Shown: one piece after another, positions 5,374 through 53,021 of the stretch | Layout of the letters: each line of letters begins with the position of its first letter | Numbering within the stretch: position 1 is the first letter of the stretch | Origin: Paramarasmius palmivorus | Taxonomy: Eukaryota; Basidiomycota; Agaricomycetes; Agaricales; Marasmiaceae | Direction of reading: 5' to 3' | Length of the DNA: 64,000 nt | Assembly: GCA_037176845.1 (NCBI GenBank) | Contig: JAYKXP010000008.1 | Coordinates: 930,001 to 994,000 of the forward strand | Translations under genes and position numbers: made by a program | The notes under the pieces: generated by a model | Database searches by the model: none | Told to the model about the DNA's origin: nothing | What the model saw: the letters and a program-made list of their open reading frames with translations, nothing else

Positions 5374-6039
5374 ACACCTGATTGACTTCGGGAGACGTGT
5401 CGTCGTGCTTTGGGATTTTTTGTTGTACATTCTGCTGCATTTTCTGATCATCGAACACAATCAATGTATCATTTACCTACTCAAAAGAATCGATTAATAC
5501 TTTTTCTGATTCTAAAGATGATAGAAGGGTTGAGAAGGTTCTTGCCTAGTGCGGTAGCGAGTTTCAAACATCGCTTAGCTATTGTAGACAGTCCCCATGT
5601 TTGTCCTATTGTACTCGCGCTACGATTGAACCATTGTTCCCAAAGGCTCACGTCGATATACACGTGTGATCGGTGTGCTAAATCAAAGCGTCGAGTCAGA
5701 AACGCGACAAACGCGTGTGCTGTTCAATAATCGAGTCAAAGCGCGTGTAGAACGCGAGAAAGACGCGTGCCAGACCCGAGTTTGACTGCCAAACTAGTCC
5801 ATTGACGCGGTTTGACGGACGCTGACTCGGTTAGGACTTGCCTGTTGTGGCAATCGATAGCCCCAGCTGGGTGCTCCGCGTGATGCTGACTAATCACAAT
5901 GGGCAAGCGGGGAGAACCGTTTTTGTACCTCTTGCTCTTACTGCCATTATCCTCTTTTGTTACCTCATGATCTCCTCTTTATAGTCCTATCTTTTCTGTA
6001 TCAATACCGTCGCCCACTTCATTCTTTCCAAGCAAATCC
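5374..6039. other. HSP90 3' region and promoter of the 6040 gene
   Basis: No gene is seen. The first part is HSP90 3' flank; the second holds the ACGCG cluster described separately. Confidence 0.6.
5700..5809. promoter_or_regulatory. Cluster of MluI-box-like ACGCG sites
   Basis: Six ACGCG/CGCGT cores lie in about 110 bases (at about 5702, 5711, 5741, 5752, 5763 and 5805), including two full ACGCGT. In ascomycetes ACGCGT is the MCB element bound by MBF (Mbp1-Swi6), which drives G1/S genes. The cluster lies 230-340 bases before the gene at 6040. Confidence 0.5.
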
Positions 6040-26614: not shown

Positions 26615-27033
26615 CGCGACTTCTGCATCCTGGACTGGCCTTCCATATATACTTCTCTCGAAGCTTGTTCAACACAGTGTCCAAACTAAATTCGTGTAAT
26701 CCTGGTTCATATCTCACTATTGTATCTCAGTGAATAGAGTGCTATCGAAATTTTGACCACAACAAGGGATTCAGAACTCGGCCGAAGGTCCGTGCGTGAG
26801 AGAGCTGTAAATAAAGGAAGGCTGCAGTGTTTCCCGCATCATATCCATCACTCTCATTATCAACACACGGTGGGCTGCCGGCTGGGATTTCAGATAGGGT
26901 GTGGGAGGCCATTTCATTTGGTATTCCCATTGTTTCTGACCATGTTTCTTACTGATTAACTGTCGTGAAGTTCCGGCGGGACCTTTCTGATAGGACCTAA
27001 TACAACGAATTCACTTTCATACTCAGAAGCAGG
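26615..27033. other. Intergenic region before the first F-box gene
   Basis: Nothing recognised. Confidence 0.5.
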
Positions 27034-28776
27034 ATGGGCAGCGCCATAGGCACGGAACCGGAAGTTCTTGAGGCTGCTTTATCGACAACGGACCAATCAG
27101 CCCTCAGAGAGCTGTTGCACCTTGCTTCCTCGTCCAATAGACGCGTCATCGCCCGTGCCCTTTGCGACGCAGAGAACACAATCAGATACTACGAGGCCGA
27201 GATTGCACAGCTACTTGCTCAACGCCAGAGATTCGTCAGAAGAGCAGAAAGATGTCGATCGCTACTATCACCTGTCAAGAATATACCACCCGAAATCCTG
27301 TCCCTCATCTTCGAATTCTACTGCCAAAAGAATATCCTACTTCCAGACACACTCTCCCCTGCTTCGACGCTTTGCGCAGTTTGCTATCGTTGGCAACAGA
27401 TTGCGCTGTCGATACCAAGACTTTGGTCGTCTCTAGATATCGACTTTAGCTCTTGGGGAACAAGACACGGCTCGCGTCTCGCCCGAACCATCCAAGCATT
27501 CATGGAACGATCCAAAACGAATCCTTTAACACTTCGACTGAAGATAGACGAAGAAGATGATAGCGACGACGATAGCGACGAGGACGTGAACTCTCCGCTA
27601 GATCGTATCAATAGGTCTGCCTTGGAGATCCTTGTCCGGAATTCGTGTCGTTGGTTTGATGTTGAGTTCGATGGTCCGACGGATATTCTGGACCACGATG
27701 ATTTCCTACCCATTGGAGGATGTCTTCCGCGGTTGAGATACGTCAATTTCGGACTCGTTGAGCCTTACGGTCTCTTTTCGGATGCTCCCAGCCTCTGTTC
27801 CGTGACCTACACCCCAGGGTCTAATGTCCCAGTCCCGTCATTGCCATTGGATCATATCAAACTCCTAGAGCTCAGGGAATGCGATGGGCCCTCTGCCCTC
27901 CGAATGTTGCAGGCTTGCAAAGCCATAGAGGAGCTGAAGCTATACTGGGTTGGGGGTGGTGTCGCTGAAGCCCTGATGGAGGCTTTCCCTAGCATGAACA
28001 CCCTGAGGGTAGAGACGAGAGATGAATGTGACATCTCTTTAGTCTTGCAACTGACACTTCCTGTCGTCACCCTTATCGAGCTTAAATGTTTCGATAAGCG
28101 TCGAACCGAGCTTGGCTGGACAGTTTGGGATACATCCAGTGTTCAAACATTTTTCGGCGATTCACCAATCCTAGAACTCCGCTTAGACAATCTACCTATC
28201 ACCGACACCCAGGTCATAGGCATCCTCTCCTGTCTCCCTTCTCTTCGAAAGCTTCATATTCGAGACCTTGGTAGGTGGGTTTTAGATGGTCCTCCAGGCC
28301 GCCAAACAGGGAACAGGACCATCACCTCCCCGTTCTTCCAGAGTCTCACTGCAGTCGGACCTTCAGATACAGTCCTGATACCCCGCCTTACGGACTTGAC
28401 TCTGGATGCCTCGGGCGACATGTTCGATCCTGGGCCCTTGTTGAAACTCATTCAATCCAGGTTGGGACACGATAGTGGCGAGATAGAAAATTTACACTCG
28501 GTGCACTTGCAGTTGAGAGGTGAAGGGAGTACACCGGGTGTTACAACACCGATATCGGACCATACTTTTCCAGGATTACAGTTCACGTTCGCGTTCACGC
28601 AGATTAAATATCAGTGGACCATCTTTGTAGGTATACAAGAAACTGAAGTAGTACTTGGGCAGATTCATAAACCAGTCAGTTTCTTTTCGCGCCGGCGTCT
28701 GAGCAAGGTTAGTTGCCATCGTTGCGGCACTACAGAAATCATGTTATTAGCGAAACGTCCTTTACGAGCCTGTTGA
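27034..28776 (+). CDS. F-box / leucine-rich protein, copy 1
   Basis: A single uninterrupted frame of 580 codons. After an N-terminal helix (RRVIARALCDAENTIRYYEA, EIAQLLAQRQRFVRRAER) comes an F-box-like segment NIPPEILSLIFEFYCQKNIL and the signature WQQIALSIPRLWSSLDIDF, common to a large agaricomycete family. The rest carries irregular leucine-rich repeats (LKLYWVGGG, LPVVTLIELKCF, LPSLRKLHIRDLG). Such proteins are expected to be SCF ubiquitin-ligase adaptors, but members of this expanded family are mostly unstudied. Its 3' end (28709-28776) overlaps the antisense secreted-protein gene, so the true stop or transcript end may need revision. Two relatives lie at 30736 and 32474. Confidence 0.8.
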   Translation: MGSAIGTEPEVLEAALSTTDQSALRELLHLASSSNRRVIARALCDAENTIRYYEAEIAQLLAQRQRFVRRAERCRSLLSPVKNIPPEILSLIFEFYCQKNILLPDTLSPASTLCAVCYRWQQIALSIPRLWSSLDIDFSSWGTRHGSRLARTIQAFMERSKTNPLTLRLKIDEEDDSDDDSDEDVNSPLDRINRSALEILVRNSCRWFDVEFDGPTDILDHDDFLPIGGCLPRLRYVNFGLVEPYGLFSDAPSLCSVTYTPGSNVPVPSLPLDHIKLLELRECDGPSALRMLQACKAIEELKLYWVGGGVAEALMEAFPSMNTLRVETRDECDISLVLQLTLPVVTLIELKCFDKRRTELGWTVWDTSSVQTFFGDSPILELRLDNLPITDTQVIGILSCLPSLRKLHIRDLGRWVLDGPPGRQTGNRTITSPFFQSLTAVGPSDTVLIPRLTDLTLDASGDMFDPGPLLKLIQSRLGHDSGEIENLHSVHLQLRGEGSTPGVTTPISDHTFPGLQFTFAFTQIKYQWTIFVGIQETEVVLGQIHKPVSFFSRRRLSKVSCHRCGTTEIMLLAKRPLRAC

Positions 28777-29214
28777 CGAGGCTCATGACTCACGCAAACT
28801 GAGATTTTCCGGCCATTACACGAGCCAGAGTTGGGGTCTGGTCGGCATTTGTACCTGTTTAAAAGTTAGCACAGGGTGACACGACTTGCTGGTAGACACA
28901 TACTCGAGTCCATTGCGAGCCTTATACCAATTGAAGGTAACGGGAGGGGGCGTACATCCAAATTTACCAGAGGTACAGGGATTATCTCTCGTTGCGCCAT
29001 AGGCATCGACAATGTTGCAGTTGGCATCATGAACGTCCCCTAGGGCAATGATGAGACAGAACACCGTGGAGAGAGGATGGAACTAACATCGCTTATAGTC
29101 GGGCCCTAGAGAAGCATATCCTTCACCAATACCAAAGTTGAAGCCGGGACAGATAGAGAGGACAGGCGAAGCAAGAAAGAGTAGTGTAGGGAGTACGAGG
29201 GCTTTGGTGTGCAT
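28709..29214 (-). CDS. Small secreted cysteine-rich protein
   Basis: Four exons (29214-29088, 29039-28904, 28854-28794, 28729-28709) join in frame. The signal peptide MHTKALVLPTLLFLASPVLS is followed by ICPGFNFGIGEGYASLGPDY, then HDANCNIVDAYG, NPCTSGKFGCTPPPVTFNWY, CRPDPNSGSCNGRKISVC and the end CRNDGN. The pattern of about nine cysteines and the CPGFNFGIG start occurs in many small secreted proteins of agaricomycetes; I know no assigned function. The last exon (21 bases) lies inside the reading frame of the convergent F-box gene. Cys spacing suggests disulfide bonds in the mature protein of about 95 residues. Confidence 0.75.
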
Positions 29215-30615
<1,401 letters not shown>

Positions 30616-30735
30616 TGTGTTGTCATCATTGTTGTATTATCATAGCCAATCCACATTATTTTGGGCTGTCAATGTTTTCTCATCCAATACCCTCTGGAGG
30701 CACTACTCAACATTTTCACTTCTACAAAAATCTAT

Positions 30736-32325
30736 TCAATTATGGTCCTTGGTCCTAAACATTGTCACTGTGAGTTGTAGCCCCGCAGCTACCAGAGGCT
30801 CCAATGCCGATACGTCTATGAAAGGCATATCTCGATCATATCCCAACACAACCTCGACAACTTGCACACGGTCGATACATGTACCTCTAATATCTCGAGG
30901 AATCCATCTCGAAGACACCATTTTCACCAGCTGCTCGGAATCAAATCCTCTCGAGTGGGCTTTGAGGAATAGCGCTGTGAGGTGGGTACGATTACTGATG
31001 ATTCTTCTGTACTCTCCGGGAATGAGAGGTGCCGAAGGAGAAGTGGGGGTAATGGTTTGGTTGACAGGCGAGTCAACAGCGAGTTCGGGTATGGTAGCTG
31101 CGTCTTCGATGTGAAGTTTTCGAAGGGTAGGTACATAGGTGAGGATAGTGATAATCTGGGTGTCAGAGAGGGGTAGATTCTCGATACGGAGGTTGGTGAT
31201 ACAAGAGCATTGTTGGAAGAAAGATTGTACCATGGGTGTATCTTTCCACATCTCCCAGGCCCCCAGATCATCGATGAACAAAGCGACGAGCTCGAGAGAT
31301 TCGAGTCGGGGTAGAAGCAAGTGGGCAATTGCGAAACAAATGTCGTACTCTCCACCAGAAACTTTGAGGGTATCCACACTGGGCATTAACACTTGCGGTT
31401 CGATAGGGAGACTGTTTTCGACCCACAAAAGTTCTAATCGCCGCACTTGCCTACATTGTTGAAATATACGGGTGGCCACGAAATCGTTGTAACAATGCCT
31501 GAGCGTCATGTGGATGAGCTGACTGTAGGGCAGGGATGGGGCGTAGTCTGGCATGCAAATGGCGACCGACGTCAAAGCGGGAGCATCGTCAAAAACGTCA
31601 AGCGTTCCAAAATCGATATCCAGTTGTCGCAACAAGGGAAGGCGCCCTTTGATTCCCTTGAGAACCTCTGCCTCCAAAACACCTGCGTCACTGAAGAACA
31701 CCACTTCAGACCAACGCGACGAATGATCGGCAAGGATGCGCATTGTAGGATTGACGATTTCGGTGTAGTGGTTGTCGTGCCAAATAGTGTGTATCTTTAG
31801 CGGCATGGCTTTGGATCGTTCCATAAAAGTTCGAACGAGATGTGCCAATCCACGCTCCGCTTGCCCCCACGAAGTAAAATCAATCTTCAATGAAGACCAC
31901 AATGCGGGCGTCGACAACGCAATCTGTCGCCAATGACAGCCAACTGCGGATATAGTTATAGCAGCTATCTGTTTCGAACTCCCGAATGTGTTGGTCTCGC
32001 AGACGATCTCGAATATGTACGAAAGGATTTCGGGTGGAAAGTTGTTGATGAGTGACAGCGCACTTTTGCACTTCTGTATGGTCTGAACGAGCCTTTCGCG
32101 ACGAGAAAGAAGAGCTGCGATCTCTGCGTCGCAAGCTTTGAGATCGCTTTCTGCCACAGACAGAGTCTCCTCTACGATGTTTTGCTCACTCAAGGTCTGG
32201 TCAGTTAAAATGGCCAGGTTGGGCGAGTGGATGGAAAGGGTGCTCATGAGTTGTGACGATACCCTTGAATTTACCGGGTTGTCAAAAAGATTGGAATTGG
32301 CAAGAAAGGCTTGACACAATGACAT
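30736..32325 (-). CDS. F-box / leucine-rich protein, copy 2
   Basis: A single frame of 566 codons from the upstream ATG at 32436; the ATG at 32325 (MSLCQAFLANSNLF) is the more likely start. The order of parts is the same as in copy 1: helical region (AESDLKACDAEIAALLSRRE), F-box-like INNFPPEILSYIFEIVCETN, signature WRQIALSTPALWSSLKIDF, SKAMPLKIHTIW, then leucine-rich repeats ending near LQLTVTMFRTKDHN. It is likely a ubiquitin-ligase adaptor by family. No frame break. It lies tail to tail with NAC-alpha. Confidence 0.78.
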   Translation of the reverse strand: MSLCQAFLANSNLFDNPVNSRVSSQLMSTLSIHSPNLAILTDQTLSEQNIVEETLSVAESDLKACDAEIAALLSRRERLVQTIQKCKSALSLINNFPPEILSYIFEIVCETNTFGSSKQIAAITISAVGCHWRQIALSTPALWSSLKIDFTSWGQAERGLAHLVRTFMERSKAMPLKIHTIWHDNHYTEIVNPTMRILADHSSRWSEVVFFSDAGVLEAEVLKGIKGRLPLLRQLDIDFGTLDVFDDAPALTSVAICMPDYAPSLPYSQLIHMTLRHCYNDFVATRIFQQCRQVRRLELLWVENSLPIEPQVLMPSVDTLKVSGGEYDICFAIAHLLLPRLESLELVALFIDDLGAWEMWKDTPMVQSFFQQCSCITNLRIENLPLSDTQIITILTYVPTLRKLHIEDAATIPELAVDSPVNQTITPTSPSAPLIPGEYRRIISNRTHLTALFLKAHSRGFDSEQLVKMVSSRWIPRDIRGTCIDRVQVVEVVLGYDRDMPFIDVSALEPLVAAGLQLTVTMFRTKDHN

Positions 32326-32473
32326 ACCAGTTGTAGATTGATGGTGAATGAAGAAAAACAAGGCGTGTTTCACTCTCCGACCCCGGCGCGATGTAAACCG
32401 ACATATTGGATTCAAGGGTAATTTCAAAACCTCCATTGCAAGCTAAAGTACACGACCTTCTTGAACCACATTA

Positions 32474-33908
32474 TCATATCTTTTCATATGCGTTAAACCC
32501 GAACCCAAGCCTCTGCAGTGGTTCCAATCTCGAAAACTCCTGCGCAACATCACTGTCGTCTTTGAATTTCAACCCAACCTTGACAGTGCATAAACAATCA
32601 TCGTCAAATGTCGCAGGCCCACCGTTCCGAGGTCTCCACCTAGAGAAAATCATGTCCACAAAACTCCTGGCATCAAAATCGCGTGGCAGGGACGCCAGAG
32701 TCAGTTCCGTGAGTTTGGGCACAATAACTAACTCCTCCGCATCTTGTTTGACTGTGAGACGTTGTATGAACTGGGAGCTGATAGTCCGGTTGGAGGGCTG
32801 GAGGCTGTATGATTGTGCATTCGGAACGTACCAAACTAGGTTCCGAATGCTGAGTTTTCGCAACTGAGGGAGGCAGGCGAGGATACGAATGAGCTGTAGA
32901 TCGGAGACTCGCAAGCCCTTCATCTTGAAAGTGGTGATACAAGAGCAGTCCGTGAAGAACCTCTCTATCAAGATATCGTAGCCTGCCTCATCTAATGGTG
33001 GCTCCCTGGTCACGTAAACGTCGTTCTGGAGCACAAGGAAATCGAGTTGAGGGAGACGTAGTTGGTTGCAAGTGAAAATCACTTCTTCATCGTTGGAGGC
33101 AGTGATCACCATCGAACGCATGTTAGGCATTGTGACCCGATCTTGGCCCTCCCAGTCTATTATATTATCGAGCTCCGCGTGCTGCACGTTTGTGCAACGC
33201 TGTAGGATGGGGATGGCAACATCTCCCTGGCAATAGTTGAGATTCAATTTTGTTAGCTGGTCGTAAGGCAGCTGCCAGTCTGGGTCCGGTGTGCCCCCGA
33301 TGGATATCAACGCAGGTGCATCTTCAAATAGGTCCTGTCGTCCAAGTTCTGTGCCAATCTCCAGGCATCGCAACAGGGGAAGTCGGCCTTTGATTCGAAC
33401 CATGACGCCGGGATTCGGTGCTGTATCGTCTGAAGGAAAATGGACTTCCAACCAACGAAACGAGTTGCTGGCCAGGATTTGCATCGCAGGGTCTCCAACA
33501 TGGCTGATATACCTATCCCAACTGAGAACGAATTTTAGTGGCATGGTGCGAGATCGGTCCAGCAAGCCCGGATCCGTTTTTCCACATTGCGAGGTCAATA
33601 TAAAATGATGACCAGAGTCCTGGTGTCGACAAGGCGATCTGGCGCCAACGTCGGCAGACCGCAGAAATGGTCACGATAGCTGACATGCCCTCCCCATGAC
33701 GAAGGCCTGAGCTTAAAGCAGGGAAGCTATAAATTTGTGGGTCGTCCTCGCGGAGAACATGGAATATGGAGCAGAATATCTCGTTTGGGAGATGGAGGAT
33801 TGTGTTTGACGGTGCCAGAATGATTTGTCGGTCAAGGGATGCTGGGGTTTGTGGTGATGATAAAGGTGCTTGGCACGGTGAAGATGAGGTGTAGTGTTGA
33901 ATCGACAT
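32474..33908 (-). CDS. F-box / leucine-rich protein, copy 3
   Basis: The start at 33908 gives MSIQHYTSSSPCQAPLSSPQ. The F-box-like segment is ILHLPNEIFCSIFHVLREDD and the signature is WRQIALSTPGLWSSFYIDL. The frame shifts at a run of five A on the minus strand (about 33577-33581). Removing one A joins IDLAMWK to DPGLLDRSRTMPLKFVLSW. The second part then runs 374 codons with leucine-rich repeats to the end RLGFGFNAYEKI. It is about 40-50% similar by eye to copy 2 and probably arose by tandem duplication. Confidence 0.75.
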
Positions 33909-42135: not shown

Positions 42136-43917
42136 TCAGCCACCCCCGCTCCGAGCTCTCAGCACTTCTACCATGGCTCTCAGTTCTTCTACTTCTTCTC
42201 TGAGATCGATATTCTGTTGGCGTAACTTTCTGACTGTCTTCCCGGCATCTTGGTTCTCAGGTTCATGATGAGGCCTTGGTATCGATGCAGCAGAGAGCTG
42301 CGCTTCTAAAGACTCGACATGCTTTCTTTGCATTCTAGAAGGGCTGTCAGAACGAAGGGGGACAACGCAGAACCAGACATACTGAATTGTACGCTCTTGC
42401 TCTGCTCCCGTCTCGTACAGGGCCTGTACGCGGATATCAAGCTGTTTCATTCGCGTCTTCATTTCCTGCATTTCTTCTGCACGCTCGTTGAAACGAGTAA
42501 AATCTGCCTCCCTGGAGACGGTCAGGACATCGAGTTATGATAACAAAGGACATGCGCACCATAGTGCCCTTGTCACCTCATAATCTGCGATCTGCTTTTC
42601 GTACGTGTCCAATCGATCAATTTTGTGCTGGCTTGCTTTCCGCTCAGTTTGAAGACGGAACAGCTCTCTGGATGCCTCGTCCAAGAGCTTGCCTTGGGCT
42701 TTAAATAACGCCTACAACTAGGTCAAAAGACCAATGGTAGAACAGACAGATCGGAAGACCATACCTCAAGCTCATTGTATCCACTCCGCAACGATGCCGC
42801 ATCTCTCAACCACACTCTTTTCTCTTCCCTCAGCTCCTTCAACTTGCTCTGTAACTCTGTGTTCCAATCCAGATATTTCGTTTTAGCAGAGTGGGATTGC
42901 TCCTTATGCTCTTTGAGTTCGCTTTCCAATCGAACCACCTGCGCACGATAGTTTCGAAGCTTGTTGTATAGCCCTTGACGTTCCACTTCGGCATTACGAG
43001 CGAGGACACGGTCTTGATATAGTCTTCCAATGTGTTTGATGTTTTGTTCCTGAAGGTAGGATGTGAAACGTGCTTGGGTCTGTAGGAGAAGGAGGGCATG
43101 TTGAAGTGATGCGAGACTTTCGTCCGAATCGGCAGAATGTAGTGACGTGGATTCCAACGGTCTCGGTTCTTGGATAGGTGAAGTTTCGGGTGGGATTAGT
43201 GCAGGTGTGTACAACTCGAGTAATTTCTCGGCATCTGGCTTCGCCTCATCGCTCGAGTATCGTTCGTGTAGTGCAATGGAAGTATATCGAACGTCCATGA
43301 GCATACCTTCACTCGCTATCCGTGCCGAGTCGTATAGTTCTTCCTCTTCTTCCCAAAAGACCTTGTGAGGATAGAGTAGGTAGGGATGTGTAATGTGTGT
43401 TCTTAGCAGCGACTGTGCCGTTCCTCAGTATATTTCGGAGCAAAAGAAATGAGATTCGCACCTCTGACAACATTTGGATTTTGTCTTCGTCCCATCTTCT
43501 TTCTGTATCCATTTCCGCTGGTTTACGCAAGAAGTCGAGGATTTCGCATGGAAAGAGATAATATAGATAAGTGAAAAACCGTCTGTACTCTGGCGGTTTG
43601 ACTCCAACAGGAACCCCTTGGTCGTCTGTTTCATCCGAGACAGCGGGATCCCAGCAAATCATGCGTGCCAGAACTGCACAAAGTTCCCGGAGCCGGAATT
43701 TCATTCGTTTCGGTGCAGAAATAACAAGTTTGGTTAAAATGGAAAGCGCGATGGTTATGGAAGTGGTGGACTTGTCGTCGAGTAGTAACGCAAATAAAGC
43801 ATCGAGAAATGAATGACTGGCGAGACGAACCAAGTTCTCCTCACCGAGTACATCCAGTAAAAGCAATAGCTGAATCTTGGATTCGGGGTGTGTGAAATGC
43901 TCCGTGACTTGATCCAG
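42136..43917 (-). pseudogene. TSC1: TSC1 (hamartin), C-terminal part, separated by KDZ insertion
   Basis: Tsc1 with Tsc2 forms the GTPase-activating complex for Rheb, which restrains TORC1 growth signalling. This part starts at the insertion and reads LDQVTEHFTHPESKIQLLLL followed by LDVLGEENLVRLASHSFLD, the conserved hamartin helical domain. It continues SLLRTHITHPYLLYPHKVFW and a long C-terminal coiled coil (EVERQGLYNKLRNYRAQVVR, KLRQQNIDLREEVEELRAMV) ending RARSGGG. Introns join in frame (for example GAG|TCG CTG CTA near 43455-43406). No other break is seen. An open frame starts inside the transposon terminal repeat (MDNQRNTKISVQCEGESL, 44022) and runs in frame into these exons, so a shortened protein could be made. 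Confidence 0.85.
43910..43917. repeat. Target-site duplication, left copy (TGATCCAG)
   Basis: The 8 bases TGATCCAG lie just outside the left terminal repeat; the identical 8 bases lie outside the right end. They belong to the TSC1 exon (CTGGATCA on the coding strand). Confidence 0.92.
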
Positions 43918-44129
43918 GGGACAGCTGATGGTGAAAAAACACTGGTTGTGTAATCGGTGTCCCGCGCCGAGTGACTCGCCCTCGCATTGCACAGATATCT
44001 TTGTATTCCTCTGGTTGTCCACTCACTGGAATCTCAGGTACGTCTCATTTAATTTCTCCGAGAAAGCTGTTGATAATGTCGGTGCAATCCACAGGTCTTC
44101 TCGCTTAGCCGGAGAAAACAATCATTGGC
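43918..44129 (+). repeat. KDZ left terminal inverted repeat
   Basis: It begins GGGACAGCTGATGGTGAAAA and ends near GAGAAAACAATCATTGG. It matches the reverse complement of the right end over about 211 bases with about 16 mismatches (counted by eye), clustered near positions 58-90 and 125-175 of the repeat. Confidence 0.9.
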
Positions 44130-44401
44130 GAAGACATCCCCGAATTTCGCTGGTTTACAAGTGGTTAAAAGACTGGAAGCCCAAGAAAACTCCCATTTCC
44201 CCCTTCCCTACACCGTCACCTTGTCACATCGTCGTCGCGTTTCAGCTCCCTGGGCTGCTCTTTCTTTCCTCACATCATTTCACGTTCCTCTACGCGTCGG
44301 GTCCCGCTATGCCTTAAAAGCAAGCATCCGGGAGATGTTTTGTCCTCATCTTCTCTGCTCTTCATTGGATATACTGTGTCGAGTCAGATTTAGGTCTCAG
44401 G

Positions 44402-45826
44402 ATGTCCAGTAAGTCAACTCAACGAGTTTGGAGGCTCCCTGCTGACACATTTCAGATTTATGCCACAAGCATGATTGTGCTATAGTCAATGGTGGTCGTG
44501 CACCATCACGAAGAGGGCACATCTGTGTGGGACTTGGCCATTTTGTATGTACTCTTGCTCTATCTTAATGAACTGTATCTTAATGCCTTGCAGCTCCCAA
44601 ATGTTCCCTCACCCACATTTACAGACTCTCCAATCTCCGCCACTGCAACTCCCGTCGAAAATAGTATGCCCTTCGCTTCATCATTCCAGTTTTCACCCCA
44701 GTACTCGCCTCCATCATCTGGTGATGACAGCAACAGTGGAATATTGGACGGTATCGTTTCGGCGCCCACACCCATTTTCGATACCGCAATGCAAGGTACC
44801 CCCTCCGAGACTTATCCGGGTATCTTCGATGCTCCTGTAGAGCAGTATCCGCTACTCAATGGGTCGGACTGGAGTCTCCCTTTCGAGTCCTATGTCGGGA
44901 TGAACATTGACTTTCCAGGAGATGCTTCAGGCATTGGTACGTGTCATTTATTAGTTACGATCTTGAAATACATTCTGATATCTGTTCGGAATACAGGTTC
45001 TTCCCCAATCAACCAGAGTGGTGCAGATTCATGTGATTGGACCCAATTCATCCAAACGACCCCAACCCAGGTCCCGACGCCGGAGGCTTTGGCTGAGACA
45101 CTGTCCAGTGTCCAATTGGAAGGGCCAGCCACTATTATCAACAACTTTGATGCTACGCCACAAGTACAGAGCTATGGTAAGCATGTTTAGTTGACGCTTT
45201 TCAACAGTCTAATTTGTTTCTAGAACCAGTCAATACAGAGCACGCAACCAAGAACCCGGCTTCAGGGCGGCAGCCCAAAAAGCGCAATAACAGGTCGGTG
45301 TCGGCACCGTACACTGAGCGGCCGTCGGGGCGACGAAAAGCAGCAGGTAGATCACAATATTTCCTTTTAAGTTATCAATCCATACTGATTTTTGTGTCAG
45401 TCAATGTTCCTGCGTTCGTCGAGGATGATCAAAAGAGAACAGATGCATTTTCAGAACGATCAAAGCGGTTCCTCAGAACTGTGAGTGAATTTTCGTACTC
45501 AAATGTATTTCTTGATACCAATGTATTGAGCAGGCCGAAAATCTCTCTTCTGCCTGTGACCCCTTTGTATTAGTCTACTGCTCTCGGTACGTATCTGTCC
45601 CCTTCTTACACAATCTGGTCTAACTTTTTGATTCAGGCCTGAGTCTATTTCAGATCACCGTGGCAAAGCTAAGAGCTTTGTCTCGCCTCAACTTGAGCAG
45701 GCTCTTGCGGATATCGGCAAGTCTCATCTCATTGATGAGCTTCACGTAGCTCTTAGTGAGTGGAAAAGGGGCCAGCTATCGACCCGTGCCAATACTGCTG
45801 CTGTAAATGCCTCAGTATATGGTTAA
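44402..45826 (+). CDS. KDZ companion protein with MADS-box-like C-terminus
   Basis: Eight exons (44402-44408, 44456-44544, 44594-44936, 44997-45176, 45224-45346, 45401-45480, 45534-45586, 45637-45826) add to exactly 355 codons, 354 residues. The N-terminus is MSNLCHKHDCAIVNGGRAPS with closely spaced Cys/His. A long Ser/Pro/acidic middle could be an activation region. It is followed by a basic patch (RQPKKRNNRS, ERPSGRRKAA). Residues of about 252-292 read FVEDDQKRTDAFSERSKRFL and RTAENLSSACDPFVLVYCSR. These align almost without gaps to a MADS box (pattern R-x2-FS-R-x3-L-x2-A-x2-LS-x2-CD-x-V-x-S). This suggests a DNA-binding regulator carried by the element; it is my inference, not a known annotation. 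It ends 71 bases from the convergent transposase. Confidence 0.75.
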
Positions 45827-45897
45827 GTAGAATCATAGTTATCATGGAAACCTCTAGGTACTTAGATATAGGTAGAGCTTATGAATCATAATACATG

Positions 45898-48870
45898 CTA
45901 TTTAGCCTTTGACATGCGCCGTTCCACTTCTCGGTTCCAAATATGTAAGAATACCCATATGAAGAGAACAGCGTTCTCAAAGTTCATGAAGCTAACACTC
46001 TTGCGGATGCGCTTCATGCCCTGATTTCCACACTCTGCGGCACTTGTATTAATCTTGCGAATTTCATTGTCATACCGCATCCAGTTGCTGGCAAAACATG
46101 CTTGACCACAACGAGTATGGTCATGCGCATGTAATTCATCGATGAGGAATTGTGTATCTCGGAAGTAGCGAGCTTCGCGTACCAAACAGTACGTCGCCAA
46201 CTGACATGCAAAGTCGTAGATAATGATCCTCGGCGCTTTGGGAAATCGTGTATAGATGGCCGAAAAGACATCGTTCCGGCCTTCGGCAGTTGGTATTGAG
46301 TGGAATCCAAGGCAAATAGAGTGGCGACACCATAATACCATGATCCCGCCCGTCAGATTATTTTTAGAGTACGTCTTGTAGAACTTGTTGCAGTCTCCCA
46401 TCTGCTCGGCTGCGCGATCTAATGTAGAACCATCGTGATTCAGCTTGGCATACCTACGCCTAGATCGGACGGCAGGAAGACCATAATAAGTCCCCGTCTT
46501 ATACCAATCCTGAGAGGCAGCCGACTGCAAGTTGTAATTTGGCGGGCTAGGATCATGTCGAGCTAGCCGCATGTAGACCTCTGTTGCTCGTGATGCAAGC
46601 CATCCAGCTAACACTCGAAGGGCAGCAGGCAAATCTGTATGACTGCGTCGATGCACTTCTGCTACGACACCAAACGCTGGGAAGTCGCGTTGAAACCAGT
46701 CTGGTACAATGCCGGTGTCTTTGATTTTGTTGAGTGTGTCGATGGCCCGATATGGAACAAGTTGAAGAACAATATCTGGAGCCGAAATTTGTTCAAGGAG
46801 GTTCCGGTAGCTCTTGAATAGAAGTGGACGTAGGTCATTGTTACATCCGATCGAAATGTATAAGAGAATAAAGTTATAGAGTTCGGGATGTTTTGAAGGT
46901 ATTGTGGAGGCATTGACTTCATGGGTAACTGCGTCAAGCGTATAGGCTCCCGATGTTAGGTTAAGTATCTTCTTCACGAAATTTCGTTCGGTTTGTTTTG
47001 GGATAGTTGGAAGACACTGTGCAATATAAGAGGAGATCGACTCGATCCTCTCACTTTGCGTATCAAGGAAGGTAGGGGGTTTGACATGGGATGTAACCTT
47101 CGAAACATGTGTACCGAGGCTAATACCATCTGCGATAACAATATCCGGCTGATCTCCACAAGTTGAACATGCCATGCCGCTGTCCAGGGCTTGAAGCTTC
47201 ACAAAGCTGAACCAAACCCGCACAAAGGTTTCATTAGAGCAGAACTTCATGCTCGCAGACTGCTCCTCGTATGCACGTCTCCGAGTGAGACAGAAGGCTG
47301 AGAAGGGTGTTTCGGATGCTGTGTAAGTACTGGTGTATTCGTTGAGAAGGTCGTGCGTGAAGAGCATGGTATTGTTCCAATTGAAAATCCCAAACTCGCT
47401 CAGATCAGGACCTATATGACGGCGGGCATGACGACATCGGGGGCATGGAACGACCTCAACAACAACTTCACTGCTAAATGCAGTGTGAAATAGGATTGCT
47501 GGTTGGAATGTTGCCGGAAGAAGGTCCATGTGATGCAAGTTCTGCGCGTCTACCAGTGACAGCCCACAGCTGCAGCGGGCAGAAATGGGGTTGATAGGGA
47601 ATGTGGACATCTGCATTGGGTCGACCTTGGGCACAAAATATGCCATTTCATGAGGAGATGCACACCATCTCGGCGGGAGAACCATTATATGAGAGACGGA
47701 ACCTCGGGCTCCCACATCCCCGCGGCCACTGATTGCACGCCCAAGAAGCTCATCCTCCTCATCTTCACCTTCATCAAGGTCATTACCGTCATCCTCAACC
47801 TCCTCAGCTCCATCCTCGATGAATTTCGCCTTGACAAGGAAAGCCTTGGCTTGTGGTCGATGCTTACAACTATCTGAAAACCCGCAAGAATCACATTGCC
47901 AGCGGCCGTCTTTCCGAAGGCTCACAATCGCACGCTTTGTTGAGTGGTAACGCTCGGAAGATGAACCAGAAGTTGAAGAAAATATATATTTCTTCCGATA
48001 TGGTGTTACATGAAGAAGAACAGCATCGGGAAGCGGAGCGCGGACGATACATTCGAGAAGCATACAGTCGACGTGATAGCGGACAAAGATATGACAGTGG
48101 CGGCAGTCCTCTCGTGTCTTGTACGATGGGCAAGTACAGCTAACAGTAAACGTAGCCGGACCCTCGGGAAGAAAACTAATGTGCTCGTACTTGCCAATCT
48201 GGATTCCCGTTAAACATAAATGACAGATCACAAGAATACAACTTTACCTTCAAACATTGATGTTCCGAATCCCAATCTTGGAAGACGAAAAGCTTGTCGT
48301 CTAGGCGCAACACCATCTCCAGATGTGTCAGGGCATACCAATAATCATCTAAGTCATCGCTAAGCGGTGCAGATGGATTATCGGTGTTTCCGTTGGGTAC
48401 AGGCATCTCCAGACCAACGCCATCTGGTATGGAATCTATTCACCATATTGTTAGCCCTTGCCATGCCCGGAAATAAGAGAAAACATACCTCCATGCAAAG
48501 AAAGACCTGAGTCATTGACCGAGGTATAAGAGGTTTGGTCTAGTTGAGTTCTCACATCAGCGTGAGCAGCATGTGTGAGACAAGGTGAAGAATACAGACC
48601 ACGCAACAAGAATGAAGGACCCCCTAAGTCCAAATCATTGGAAAGGGTACCAAAACCTTGATGTGTCTGGAGTTGGGAATGAGGCTGAAGCTGAGGCTGA
48701 GGCTGGGGACGAAGACGAGGCTGGCGCTGATCTTGTGATGGATGCGATGTTTGCGATAGATTGGTGTCGAGACGTGCTTGTCCAGTGAGCGCCGAAACTC
48801 GCTCGCGAGGAGGTAGATTTGATTTGGTTGAGATGAGTCTTGCTCTCTTCGGTCGGGACTCGCTGGACAT
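45898..48870 (-). CDS. KDZ transposase with CxC zinc clusters
   Basis: Three exons (48870-48489, 48435-48248, 48198-45898) give 956 residues with no frame break. The N-terminus MSSESRPKRARLISTKSNLP is basic, then Gln/Pro-rich. A Cys-rich part follows: CTCPSYKTREDCRHCHIF, CDSCGFSDSCKHR, RCSCGLSL and CPRCRHARRH, as in the CxC clusters fused to KDZ transposases. The C-terminal catalytic part contains GGIMVLWCRHSICLGFHSIP, RIIIYDFACQLATYCL (Asp near 852), DELHAHDHTRCG, and NTSAAECGNQGMKRIRKSVS (Glu near 912), ending with IWVFLHIWNREVERRM. D...E residues fit the RNase H-like fold. Minus-strand start chosen at the first ATG giving a continuous basic head. Confidence 0.9.
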
Positions 48871-49224
48871 CGAAAGGAAAGGAAATGAGTGCGACAGAAG
48901 AAGGAAAGATGAACATGCGACGCACACGTTGACTCGTTGAGTACCCTGGCCCACACTCTTTGGTACCGCACCGGAAAATGAAATTTCCAACCTATTGTAC
49001 AACCTCCTCCCGCGTAGTGGACCGTCGGATCTGTATAGACAGGTGCCAGTGAAGATTTAAGCAATGAGGGATGTAAAGTCACCTTTGGGGCAGTAGCGGC
49101 GGGCTCCGAGCCCGCATAGTCATAGCCTCCACCTGTGGGGAGACCATGAATTTGCTTGACCTAGAGCCCTACCTTTATATGAATAGTCAACCAGTGGAAT
49201 ACGGGGGTTTGTCTGGTTTGTTCA
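48871..49224. other. KDZ subterminal region, transposase promoter
   Basis: It is non-coding between the transposase start and the right terminal repeat. A perfect 7-base hairpin with a 3-base loop (GCGGGCT-CCG-AGCCCGC) lies at 49099-49115. Confidence 0.55.
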
Positions 49225-49435
49225 CCAACGATTGTTTTCTCCGGCTAAGCGAGAAGACCTGTGGAATGCACCGGTGTTATCAACAGCTTTCCCGGAGAAA
49301 CTAAGGGAGACGTACCTGAGATTCTAGTGAGTGGACAACCAGCGGTATGCGAAGATATCTGTGCAATGCGAGGGGAAGTCACTCGGCGCGGGACACCGAT
49401 TACACAACCAGTGTTTTTTCACCATCAGCTGTCCC
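49225..49435 (-). repeat. KDZ right terminal inverted repeat
   Basis: The minus strand begins GGGACAGCTGATGGTGAAAA at 49435 and matches the left repeat inward to GAGAAAACAATCGTTGG. Reading from TSC1 into this repeat adds 36 residues of transposon origin before a stop at 49324. Confidence 0.9.
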
Positions 49436-49443
49436 TGATCCAG
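49436..49443. repeat. Target-site duplication, right copy (TGATCCAG)
   Basis: Identical to 43910-43917. It is followed by CAGCTG, the TSC1 codons for Leu-Gln before LDQ on the coding strand. Confidence 0.92.
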
Positions 49444-49911
49444 CAGCTGTGCGGGCGGCAAATGTACCAAAATCCACTCCAAGTTCTCTTTCCAACACTC
49501 TTTTATGCCTTTGTCCTTGTCCCTTCCCGTATACTCCAATATATCCTCACCCAGAGGATTAATCACGTCGAGAAGGTATAATTCCATTAACCGCTTAGCA
49601 AATCTCGGGTCTATGCCAGCGGTCAATACCAACTCCCTTGCCTGCTGTTTTGCTTGTGTACCCAGACCGGACATCTTCAAAGCAGGTCTCAATGTTGAAT
49701 CGAACCAACTCTCGATGATGCTTTCCACTGAGGGCTTGAAGTGGTAGAGGACGGCGAGAAAGACATGTATATGAGACGAATCGGGGTATTCATCGAGAAC
49801 ATCTTGAATATCTTCTTCCCATCCTTCGCTAGATGGAGGAAGAGAGGAGAGGAGGTCGTTGAGAGGAAGGGTATTCTCGAGTACAAGGCGAAGGGAGTGT
49901 GAAAGGGACAT
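49436..49911 (-). pseudogene. TSC1: TSC1 (hamartin), N-terminal part
   Basis: The start at 49911 gives MSLSHSLRLVLENTLPLNDL, followed by IQDVLDEYPDSSHIHVFLAV, PALKMSGLGTQAKQQARELV, and ENLEWILVHLPPAQLLDQ, where the transposon begins. The 158 residues match the hamartin N-terminal helical region and continue at 43917 as LDQVTEHFTHPESK. Reading on into the transposon gives GQLMVKKHWLCNRCPAPSDF and a stop at 49324. A truncated protein of about 195 residues is therefore possible. The start lies 82 bases from the divergent CXC gene. Confidence 0.85.
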
Positions 49912-49993
49912 GTGTTGGGAGATAAGATAAGATGCTTGATTTGCATAAAAAAGTTTCGCACGGTAAATTTACCCTTCAACCAGTGGCACCACC

Positions 49994-50677
49994 ATGGCTA
50001 TCCTCAAGTGCCTCCGAGTCGGGTGCGATTTCGAGCAGCCTTTCCACGAAACACGTCGATCTGTTATACGTCGAGACGCGCAAGGTCGTATTGTTCAAGA
50101 AGACGAGTGGACGTTTGACCCCGCCACTGGCAAGTGCATTCGCGACGCGTCAGACAGGACGGGCAGAAATCAGCCATATTTTCGCAGGTGCTTTGGTTGC
50201 TTCCAGAATACCGGATGGGTACACTCCTCTGAACCTACCCAAAGATCGTCCCAGTGGGTACCCCCAGCTGCCATAGCGGCAGCTCACCAAGCACAGGCGG
50301 TCGCGAATGGGCAGGAAGCACAACCGGACCCTGTCTGGAGCGTGAGGAGGGGCGGCAAGACGTGTGAATGTCGCGGTCGATGTCAACTCCGCGGTGGTGG
50401 TATTGGTGGATGTGGGTGCTCTAAGGAGGGCAAGGCTTGCTCCGTGCGTTGTGGATGTGGCGGACGCGGCGAAGATGGGGACTGCTTGAATCCCTATACC
50501 CCTCCGAGAAACGTCGATCCCCCAGCTAGCAAGAAATGCACATGCTCCGATAGCTACAATGGACGGTGCCGTATCGACAGAACACGCATAGGCAGCCAAT
50601 GCGGATGTGCGGTATTGGGAGTAGGGTGCTCTGATGGATGTGGATGTCGTGGAACGTGCTCAAACGGTGCTCGTTGA
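49994..50677 (+). CDS. Double-CXC (Tesmin/TSO1-like) zinc protein, copy 1
   Basis: An intact single-exon gene of 227 codons. The N-terminal domain starts MAILKCLRVGCDFEQPFHET and has the shared block RRDAQGRIVQEDEWTFDPAT, plus CFGCFQNTGWV, with five or six cysteines that could bind zinc. The C-terminal part holds two modules of nine cysteines: C-x-C-x3-C-x9-C-x-C-x6-C-x3-C-x-C-x8-C-x-N, then C-x-C-x7-C-x10-C-x-C-x6-C-x3-C-x-C-x3-C-x-N. That is the pattern of the CRC domain in Tesmin/TSO1/LIN54 proteins, which binds DNA. No signal peptide. Two further copies follow in tandem. The DNA-binding role is inferred from the cysteine pattern only. Confidence 0.72.
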   Translation: MAILKCLRVGCDFEQPFHETRRSVIRRDAQGRIVQEDEWTFDPATGKCIRDASDRTGRNQPYFRRCFGCFQNTGWVHSSEPTQRSSQWVPPAAIAAAHQAQAVANGQEAQPDPVWSVRRGGKTCECRGRCQLRGGGIGGCGCSKEGKACSVRCGCGGRGEDGDCLNPYTPPRNVDPPASKKCTCSDSYNGRCRIDRTRIGSQCGCAVLGVGCSDGCGCRGTCSNGAR

Positions 50678-51282
50678 AGGACTATGGCTCTGGAGTGGCT
50701 TAGAAGCTTTAGACGCGAATCTGATATTTTTGAGTACATTGCATAAAACGACGGGTCATCCTAGTAGACATTGAATCGTTCTGTACTCGCCTTTCTTGAA
50801 TACTTAACTATACTACATTGATGGTTCATAGCAGAATCTTCAGAAAAATCTAATGTAATGCGGTAGCCTCAGGACATAGCCGCCACCAATCCGCTGCTCG
50901 AGACTAACGACAGAATTTTGTGGGCATCGTCTTATGGGTCAATTTTTCGTATATTACACAGGGTCCCGGTCCGATCATTAACGCGTACTATTACATCGCA
51001 ACGGTAATATTTCCCCTTCTGGATTGGGACACTTGAGAGTATGAAAAACACGTTTTTCCATCACTCGGTCGAGCATTTTTTGGAGTATACACCAGCATTG
51101 ATGTCTGGAGAGTCTCCTGAGTACTGAGTTCTGAGTGTTTTGATTGCTCGGCGATGGATGTATAAAACAGGGAAGATTGCATTCGCGTAATGAGTACGTA
51201 AATTTTCCACGGTCAAAAAGGTCTAGTTGATTGCCACCGTGACCGCTTCGACCAGTGCCACTTCTACTACCACCACGACACA
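50678..51282. other. Spacer between CXC copies 1 and 2
   Basis: No gene. The last about 90 bases before copy 2 resemble those before copy 3 (see the repeat at 51190-51282). Confidence 0.5.
51190..51282 (+). repeat. Duplicated promoter block before CXC copies 2 and 3
   Basis: The segment containing CGTAAATTTTCCACG and GCCACCGTGACC...GACCAGTGCCACT just before copy 2 recurs before copy 3 at about 52245-52328 (CGTAAAATTCCACG ... GCCACCGTGGCC ... AACCAGTGGCACT). A shorter remnant, CAACCAGTGGCACCACC, precedes copy 1. The duplication unit therefore includes upstream sequence. Confidence 0.6.
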
Positions 51283-51991
51283 ATGGCTATCATCAAATGC
51301 GAAAATCCAGCCTGCAGAACCATTCTACATCAGTTTCCCCCATCAAACCTCTCTCTATACCATCGAGATGCGCAGCTGCGTATCGTACAGGAGAACGGGT
51401 GGACGTTTGATCCAGCCACTGGCAGGTGTACCGCCGACGCGTCGAACGGGAGCAACAACAACTCTCCGCTGGCATATCTCTGCAGCCACTGCAACGCATA
51501 CAGTGGACGGGTTTTTCTTCCGAACCCCTTACACAACAGGCCTTGCTTTTGCTTGGTATCCTGTTCGCGCTTCTAAGCCTCGGGGCAATACAGGCAAATG
51601 CTGGCACCCCTGCCCATCAGGAGATTTCACAGCCCCACAATTCAGCATGGCGTTTGGGAGGACGTTGTGAGTGTCGTGGTAGCTTCTGCCAACTTGCGGA
51701 TCAGGGCCCAGTATGCGGCTGCGCACGCCGTGGTGGAGCATGCACGGTATTCTGTAGATGTCTCGGACGTAGCGTAAACGGAACGTGCCTGAATCCCCAC
51801 ACCCCTCGTCAGGATGCCATTCCTCCACCTACCAGGAAATGTTCATGTTCCAATAGTGGGGCGTATGAGCGCTGCAGCATCGACGAGTTTCGCATAGGCT
51901 CACATGTAGTTGCGCTCTACTAGCAATTGGATGTTCAAGTGACCGGTGCGATTGCCATGGATCGTGCTCAAATCCATTCGGGACTCGCTGA
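51283..51991 (+). CDS. Double-CXC zinc protein, copy 2 (two frame breaks)
   Basis: It starts MAIIKCENPACRTILHQFPP and keeps the block RDAQLRIVQENGWTFDPATG. The frame breaks once between about 51530 and 51600 and again near 51902. The middle segment reads GGRCECRGSFCQLADQG, CGCARRGGACTVFCRCLGRS and NGTCLNP. After the second break the second cysteine module continues CSCALLAIGCSSDRCDC and ends SCSNPFGTR at 51991. The cysteine pattern is otherwise kept, so it is either a recently broken paralogue or an intact gene with consensus errors. Confidence 0.6.
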
Positions 51992-52328
51992 GGATTTGGG
52001 AAGGGTAGGGAATGATCATACAGCATGGGTGCTGGATGAATCGGAAGTAATACACTATTTCTTGAAAACGACTCCACGATCAATTGTCCCTTATGATATT
52101 GTTTTGTACTTTCGAACTAGAAACACCAGAAATTTTGACAGCTGGATCCTGACGGTTGTTCGGACGGGTCGTCACCGTGACCGGCATACGAGAAAGGAGA
52201 ATGAGGGAATTTCGGCTATCCGCCTTTGAAGGTTCGCGCTGGTATACGTAAAATTCCACGACCCTTAAAAGGTGGAAATTACTGCCACCGTGGCCACTTC
52301 AACCAGTGGCACTACCACCCAACAGACG
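51992..52328. other. Spacer between CXC copies 2 and 3
   Basis: It contains the duplicated promoter block at about 52245-52328. No gene. Confidence 0.5.
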
Positions 52329-53021
52329 ATGGCTGTCATCAAGTGCGAGAATCCAGCCTGCGGATTCGTACTACCTCTATCTTGGCACCCACAAACCATA
52401 TTATACCTGGATGCACAACGACGTGTCGTACAGGAGAATCAGCAATGGGCATTTGACCCAGCCACGGGAAGGTGCATTGGTGATACGTCGAACATGATGG
52501 GGAATAATGCTCCATACGTGCGACAATGCTCCCTCTGCTTTGCGTATAGCGGGTGGATCTACGCGTCGGAACTTCCCCAACTTTCGGTCCCGGCTCCCCC
52601 AGCGGCCACACCAGGGGTAACTCACGCGGGACAGGGAGGACAGGCAGTCGCGAATGGGCCTGTAGAAGTGCCAGTGTGGACAGTGAGGTCGGGCGGGAAA
52701 AGATGTACGTGTGCTTGGAGCCAGTGTGTTCCTGCTCAAAGAGGGCCTTCGTGCAGCTGCGCTCGAGACGGAGTGGCCTGCTCTGTGCTTTGTGGATGCC
52801 ATGGACGCAGTGCAAATGGCACTTGCCTAAACCCCTTCACCCCTCCGCCAAACGTCATACCTCCGACTAGCAAGATATGCTCGTGCAGTGGCACCTTTTG
52901 TAGCATCGACGAGAAACGCACGGGCAGCCAATGTGGTTGTGCGCTACTAGGAATTGGATGCTCACAACAGTGCAAGTGCCGCGGAGTGTGCTTAAACCAG
53001 TTTGGTTCTCGTGGACAATAG
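52329..53021 (+). CDS. Double-CXC zinc protein, copy 3
   Basis: An intact single exon of 230 residues starting MAVIKCENPACGFVLPLSWH, with the block DAQRRVVQENQQWAFDPATG. The two nine-cysteine modules are complete: C-x-C-x4-C-x8-C-x-C-x6-C-x3-C-x-C-x8-C-x-N, and C-x-C-x4-C-x10-C-x-C-x6-C-x3-C-x-C-x3-C-x-N. The linker FTPPPNVIPPTSK matches copy 1 (YTPPRNVDPPASK). An upstream ATG at 52272 is in frame, but the similarity among the three copies starts at MAxIKC. Confidence 0.72.
   Translation: MAVIKCENPACGFVLPLSWHPQTILYLDAQRRVVQENQQWAFDPATGRCIGDTSNMMGNNAPYVRQCSLCFAYSGWIYASELPQLSVPAPPAATPGVTHAGQGGQAVANGPVEVPVWTVRSGGKRCTCAWSQCVPAQRGPSCSCARDGVACSVLCGCHGRSANGTCLNPFTPPPNVIPPTSKICSCSGTFCSIDEKRTGSQCGCALLGIGCSQQCKCRGVCLNQFGSRGQ

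Follow-up and report, generated by a model that had tools for sequence, protein, structure and literature searches.

The closest described systems to the transposon considered here are the KDZ elements of fungi. In the available part of a report on Cryptococcus neoformans (PMC12810828), KDZ1, KDZ2 and KDZ3 possess terminal inverted repeats (TIRs) of 241, 139 and 169 bp, respectively, show duplications of 8 or 4-8 bp, and insert in FRR1, with exons included for KDZ2 and KDZ3; full-length copies are few, at 1 to 5 in the genomes named. The fungal TET+ Kyakuja, Dileera and Zisupton elements combine a KDZ transposase with a TET/JBP passenger gene, according to the accessible sections of PMC12730594, in which Zisupton and a Dileera example have 8-bp duplications, and two Laccaria Kyakuja families lack TIRs, end in CA..TG and show 7-bp duplications. 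Here we analyzed a window of 64,000 nucleotides (bases 930,001-994,000 of contig C8) in the Paramarasmius palmivorus assembly (68,308,996 bases, 393 contigs), where a complete KDZ transposon has very probably been cut and pasted into an exon of TSC1, the hamartin gene and a curb on cell growth, in the sequenced haplotype. P. palmivorus is a mushroom-forming, plant-pathogenic fungus; as Marasmius palmivorus, it appears in reports from cacao thread blight, in the available parts of two papers (PMC8581569, PMC11053350). In the literature searched, we recognized no paper with its nuclear genome as subject, and none, judged by titles, on a transposon insertion in a basidiomycete TSC1.

The two halves of TSC1 are both on the minus strand in a common frame, around the 5,518-bp element (Table 1). 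The N-terminal half (49911-49436) is 78% identical to TSC1 of Moniliophthora roreri, and the first exon of the C-terminal half (43917-43462) is 63% identical. The halves end and begin at adjacent residues of the M. roreri protein (LLD/LDQ): M. roreri reads RLLDQVEHHF, the N-terminal half ends in QLLD and the C-terminal half starts with LDQVTEHF, the LD common to both being encoded by the duplicated bases. Because M. roreri TSC1, unlike the P. palmivorus copy, runs on without a gap over the insertion site, the break is judged to be exonic, and the uninterrupted state exists in relatives. This agrees with the original prediction, which had placed the halves 5.5 kb apart on one strand, with an exonic break at L-D-Q codons, and had expected excision of the element with one repeat to restore the frame; the 5,526 bp of element plus one duplication are indeed a multiple of three. 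As a refuting result it had named two separate halves in relatives as well; the relatives have full-length proteins instead, of 688 aa in M. roreri and of 830 and 848 aa in two species of Marasmius.

A homologue search with the C-terminal half, its first intron corrected after the NCBI model, recovered 118 proteins with E <= 0.001 from 7,999 scored candidates; a source labels many of them Hamartin or Tuberous sclerosis 1. The nearest one besides the annotation of P. palmivorus itself is the 688-aa protein of M. roreri (P0052; 69% identity over 99% of the query), for which one source gives the name Tuberous sclerosis 1. Homologue search and alignment together make the gene an ortholog of proteins annotated as TSC1.

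The element agrees with the KDZ kind in every feature tested: it has a KDZ domain, a CxC cluster, TIRs and a target duplication of ~8 bp. In the predicted transposase, a hand-made three-exon model with an open reading frame, PF18717 (CxC4) scored 132.9 bits (E 8.1e-39; cut-off 26.9) and PF18758 (KDZ) 31.1 bits (cut-off 26.6). Over the part they share, the model and P0001, the protein annotated for the copy on contig C28, agree closely. The predicted transposase has 49 homologous proteins at E <= 0.001 among 8,000 scored candidates, and those with an organism name come from mushroom-forming fungi. The TIRs are 215 nt each and 92% alike, with 17 mismatches; the flanking repeat TGATCCAG is identical on both sides over exactly 8 positions, and the ninth base is mismatched. 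Both TIRs and the open predicted transposase support a complete KDZ transposon, as had been proposed together with the 8-base direct repeat; the earlier estimate of about 211 bases for the inverted repeats has to be revised to the measured length. Little sign of methylation-like decay or decay resembling repeat-induced point mutation is seen, the ratio of observed to expected CpG being 0.85 in the element and 0.95 in either flank, and (TG+CA)/(AC+GT) being 1.26 in the element and 1.16 and 1.21 in the flanks.

Table 1. Features of the interrupted TSC1 gene, the KDZ element within it and related copies. Positions are those of the window unless a locus or contig is named.
Feature	Position	Strand	Remark
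TSC1 N-terminal half, 158 codons, open	49436..49911	-	single genome match
TSC1 C-terminal half, five exons, no stop in modelled exons	42136..43917	-	NCBI gene VNI00_003440
Complete KDZ-type DNA transposon, 5,518 bp	43918..49435	.	transposase domains, TIRs, target duplication of 8 bp
Target-site duplication copy 1, TGATCCAG	43910..43917	.	
Target-site duplication copy 2, TGATCCAG	49436..49443	.	
Left TIR, begins GGGACAGCTGATGG	43918..44132	+	6 matches genome-wide, the ends of three copies
Right TIR	49221..49435	-	
Predicted second gene, 354 aa, 8 exons (hand-made model)	44402..45826	+	convergent with transposase gene
Predicted transposase gene, 956 aa, CxC4 + KDZ	45898..48870	-	exons 48870-48489, 48435-48248, 48198-45898 (hand-made model)
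Third copy of the element, two parts	L040 1932-4272 (C8:1051911-1054251) and L039 4328-7496 (C28:8327-11495)		
Related KDZ element, 5,810 bp	L041 3123-8932 (C313)		6-bp flank duplication GTGTCT

Two other copies of the element were found, which add to the original prediction, as does the second gene described below. The three copies, recognized from their six TIR matches, are 98.6-99.9% identical, and the copy in TSC1 (copy A) is the only uninterrupted one among them. Copy B (C9:31,523-37,758) is 99.4-99.5% like copy A and has a 9-bp duplication, GTTCTGGAT; its transposase is broken by an insertion of ~710 bp (L038 4519-5233), the edges of which form an imperfect GTTAC/GTAAC pair. The third copy lies in two parts: C8 holds the left half close to its end, C28 the right half close to its start, and an outer 8-bp duplication, AAAATTAA, matches across the two. 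Both halves break off at the same point, at an insertion that is flanked by a 10-bp duplication, GACATCGTTC, and whose inverted ends read GAGTA...CGATGGGTACCGCCCGATCC, so that the transposase of this copy is likewise interrupted. The splitter would measure ~14 kb if both contig ends are part of it, and no frame of its own longer than 201 aa was found in the stretch read, outside of which C28:1-3999 lies. As one KDZ copy is split across C8 and C28 with a common outer 8-bp duplication, these contigs are probably chromosomal neighbours. In total, 73 transposase matches were reported in the genome, from 58 scored of 105 candidates: five belong to the three copies, 52 are 41-58% identical and 16 are 32-38% identical.

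In all three copies, the flank duplications (8, 9 and 8 bp) abut the termini exactly and differ in sequence; because the two other copies also show duplicated flanks exactly at their termini, the duplication at the TSC1 site is not a chance match. The same copies bear on the question of whether misjoined repeats put the element between the TSC1 halves. The element is repeated, with two further near-identical copies, and contig ends break within one of them, which speaks for a misassembly. However, the perfect duplication TGATCCAG is seen only at the TSC1 site among the three copies, one frame is kept on both sides, and copy A differs by 30 substitutions from one of the other copies and by 15 substitutions plus an 18-bp gap from the second. 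Given the site-specific duplication and these differences, an assembly artefact is exceedingly improbable.

The N-terminal half, read into the element, meets a stop after 195 aa, in the TIR. For the C-terminal half, the last upstream in-frame stop falls within the TIR at a distance of 36 codons, and the first in-frame ATG after it is this half's own codon 72, which is the start of the NCBI model VNI00_003440; there, 456 aa of this half are annotated as a separate gene. With the N-terminal half ending at 195 aa and the C-terminal half lacking any earlier in-frame start codon, TSC1 has probably been lost from the sequenced nucleus. Alternatively, the TSC1 transcript might lose the element by splicing, as if it were a large intron, or two working genes might now stand in place of TSC1; the separate NCBI model is in favour of the latter. 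A consensus-like donor, CAG/GTACGT, is present in the TIR at element base 121 (minus-strand reading), and a pyrimidine-rich acceptor, TTTTTTCACCATCAG, in the TIR at position 5509. However, the in-frame stop of the N-terminal half precedes this donor, and splicing to the acceptor from the next GT upstream, which follows LLDQGQLM, leaves the C-terminal half out of frame by eye; the first ATG at codon 72 speaks against two working genes. We therefore regard both variants as very improbable, and loss of TSC1 by the insertion as the better account.

TSC1 and TSC2 act as a pair, the role of which is known from fission yeast and other eukaryotes, as set out in the available part of PMC2997006. The same text lists TSC1 as missing in some fungi, namely Saccharomyces cerevisiae and Batrachochytrium dendrobatidis, which lends some weight to the view that TSC1 was a dispensable relic in this lineage already before the insertion. 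Against this stand ~680 modelled codons without a stop (intron-corrected), TSC1 pieces 63-80% identical to M. roreri, the open GTPase-activating domain of TSC2, and the presence of TSC1 proteins in relatives, and the relic view is very improbable. TSC2 was found on C53 in open frames (Rap_GAP 6.6e-54). Among basidiomycetes, both TSC1 and TSC2 are reported from Phanerochaete chrysosporium in the accessible part of PMC7032718. A 2025 survey states, in the portion available, that only Tsc2 was observed in Basidio- and Zoopagomycota (PMC11836306); the mushroom proteins labelled Hamartin or Tuberous sclerosis 1 contradict this statement. A recent loss of TSC1 in a pathway that is otherwise kept is the simplest reading.

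The assembly yielded no second TSC1: a search with the complete M. roreri protein gave four matches at E <= 10, all at this locus, and the DNA of the N-terminal half matched the genome only at its own place. The empty-site sequence was not found in the assembly either. A query with 9.9 kb of left-flank DNA returned no long second match and also missed its own place, and is not used as evidence. The two RNA polymerase families searched were each found at three places in the assembly, which is the expectation for one haploid set (Pol I, II and III). On the basis of these two gene families, the assembly therefore most likely represents one haplotype and is silent on the allele in a partner nucleus. 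Agaricomycete isolates are commonly dikaryotic, and there is an even chance that the insertion is heterozygous, the other nucleus holding an intact TSC1 that keeps growth control normal; this is compatible with the insertion. In one haploid set, the second allele would be invisible, and the missing empty-site sequence, which speaks against heterozygosity, has little weight for a collapsed assembly.

Altogether, we propose the following course of events. The transposase would have made cuts staggered by 8 bp in the target, and repair of the gaps would have produced the duplication. As both TSC1 halves are still open and the copies are 98.6-99.9% alike, the insertion appears to be recent. The TSC1 product would be gone or cut down to a C-terminal fragment of ~456 aa, and the TSC1-TSC2 brake on Rheb and TORC1 may be weaker in cells with this allele alone. 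Raised TORC1 activity would be expected from what the pair does in fission yeast and other eukaryotes, again as given in the available part of PMC2997006.

Several points weigh against this reading. Pfam Hamartin scored 22.6 bits on the first piece of the C-terminal half, below the cut-off of 25.9, and the N-terminal half had no Pfam match. The two Tuberin pieces of TSC2 on C53 are likewise below their family cut-off, and TSC2 is known from domain pieces rather than from a gene model. The junctions are known from the assembly rather than from reads, a partner-nucleus TSC1 allele may be collapsed or left out of the assembly, and the loss of function is deduced from sequence. The event is an ordinary insertion in a notable gene, its zygosity being the uncertain part; the second gene is less expected and worth following.

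The second gene is undescribed, and the literature searched yielded no paper that joins KDZ with MADS. Its predicted protein has a Cys/His N-terminus, a Ser/Pro/Thr-rich middle and a weakly MADS-like C-terminal part. A protein search found one homologue, the partial NCBI model VNI00_003474 on C8, which is without six residues that the copy at the C8 end has deleted. The best Pfam match is SRF-TF (PF00319), with 13.7 bits (E 0.042) against a cut-off of 26, below the level that would make it a MADS-box protein; at E <= 10, Pfam gave only SRF-TF and KI67R, and no TET/JBP domain. A genome-wide scan with PF00319 at E <= 10 gave six matches, none at the element, the scan having been made exon by exon and the MADS-like part being cut by an intron. 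A model built from two MADS stretches of this genome scored 7.9 bits over residues 242-288, a value reached by none of 20,000 shuffles and with a HMMER i-E-value of 3; as the MADS family was picked after inspection, this is support and not proof. The C-terminal 101 residues had no matches among solved structures when compared by sequence. We consider the protein MADS-like only weakly, with a faint resemblance to DNA-binding regulators. Weak MADS matches on C66 and C113, two stretches 93% alike over 3.1 kb, were considered as further copies of the second gene and dropped; the C113 stretch reads as P450-type by eye.

A related KDZ element on C313 of the same genome has a transposase 58% identical to that of the TSC1 element, inverted repeats that also begin with GGGG, and a convergent second gene at the matching place. 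In hand-made models, the first intron follows the seventh base in both second genes. The C313 element differs from the TSC1 element in its length of 5,810 bp and its 6-bp duplication, GTGTCT; an A/T-rich stretch lies within its inverted repeats. Four segments of C313 match the second gene in order on the same strand (E 1.3e-6 and 4.5e-5, for two linked pieces each). The best of them (NLCHKHDCAIVNGGRAPSRRGHIC / DLCRKPECKIANGGEAPPMRKHKC) has 54% identity over 24 residues; at 33.5 bits it scores only just above the highest value among 500 shuffles (32.3), so that the order of the segments weighs as much as the score. One segment crosses a stop, possibly at an intron site; all exon choices tried for the C313 gene hit stops, and it may be decayed. 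Among the loci scanned, the Cys/His motif was found only in these two element families, in a scan that missed the known copy at the C8 end and covered other KDZ loci with 1,500-bp flanks only.

The second gene would belong to the inherited make-up of this KDZ subgroup and would most likely code for an accessory or regulatory protein. It is possible, if on balance doubtful, that a mushroom KDZ subgroup carries its own regulator. This protein would combine a Cys/His cluster (C-x4-C ... H-x-C) with a diverged MADS-like domain, and its gene would have retained its first intron and its convergent position across elements with 58%-identical transposases. The regulator would control transposition or host expression and would be another kind of passenger than TET/JBP.

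Beside TSC1, three cysteine-rich frames (49967-50677, 51411-51923 and 52269-53021) occupy window 49967-53021 on the plus strand and resemble tandem paralogs by eye; the one scanned, 49967-50677, had no Pfam match at E <= 0.1. Elsewhere in the window (27001-33670), Pfam identified an F-box-like frame (27001-28776), which two long minus-strand frames, 30736-32442 and 32474-33670, resemble by eye.

At this locus TSC1, which together with TSC2 restrains TORC1, has been cleanly disrupted by nature in a cacao-associated fungus; if homozygous or in a monokaryon, the insertion provides a natural TSC1-deficient mushroom for study. The element's little-decayed, complete KDZ structure with a recurring second gene makes a passenger role other than TET/JBP testable. 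As far as the available text of PMC12810828 goes, C. neoformans KDZ1-3 and the P. palmivorus element have in common a KDZ and CxC transposase, TIRs, a duplication of ~8 bp, genic insertion and few full-length copies. They differ in that KDZ1-3 have CxC1 and measure ~9.2-11 kb, compared to CxC4 and 5.5 kb here, and in that KDZ1-3 were caught moving in a drug-resistance trap, whereas movement of the P. palmivorus element is known from sequence alone. With the TET+ elements, as described in the accessible sections of PMC12730594, it shares a KDZ transposase accompanied by a passenger and, in the case of Zisupton and the Dileera example, the 8-bp duplication, but its passenger has no TET/JBP match. 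Its 8-bp duplication and TIRs also set it apart from the ends of the Laccaria Kyakuja families given there.

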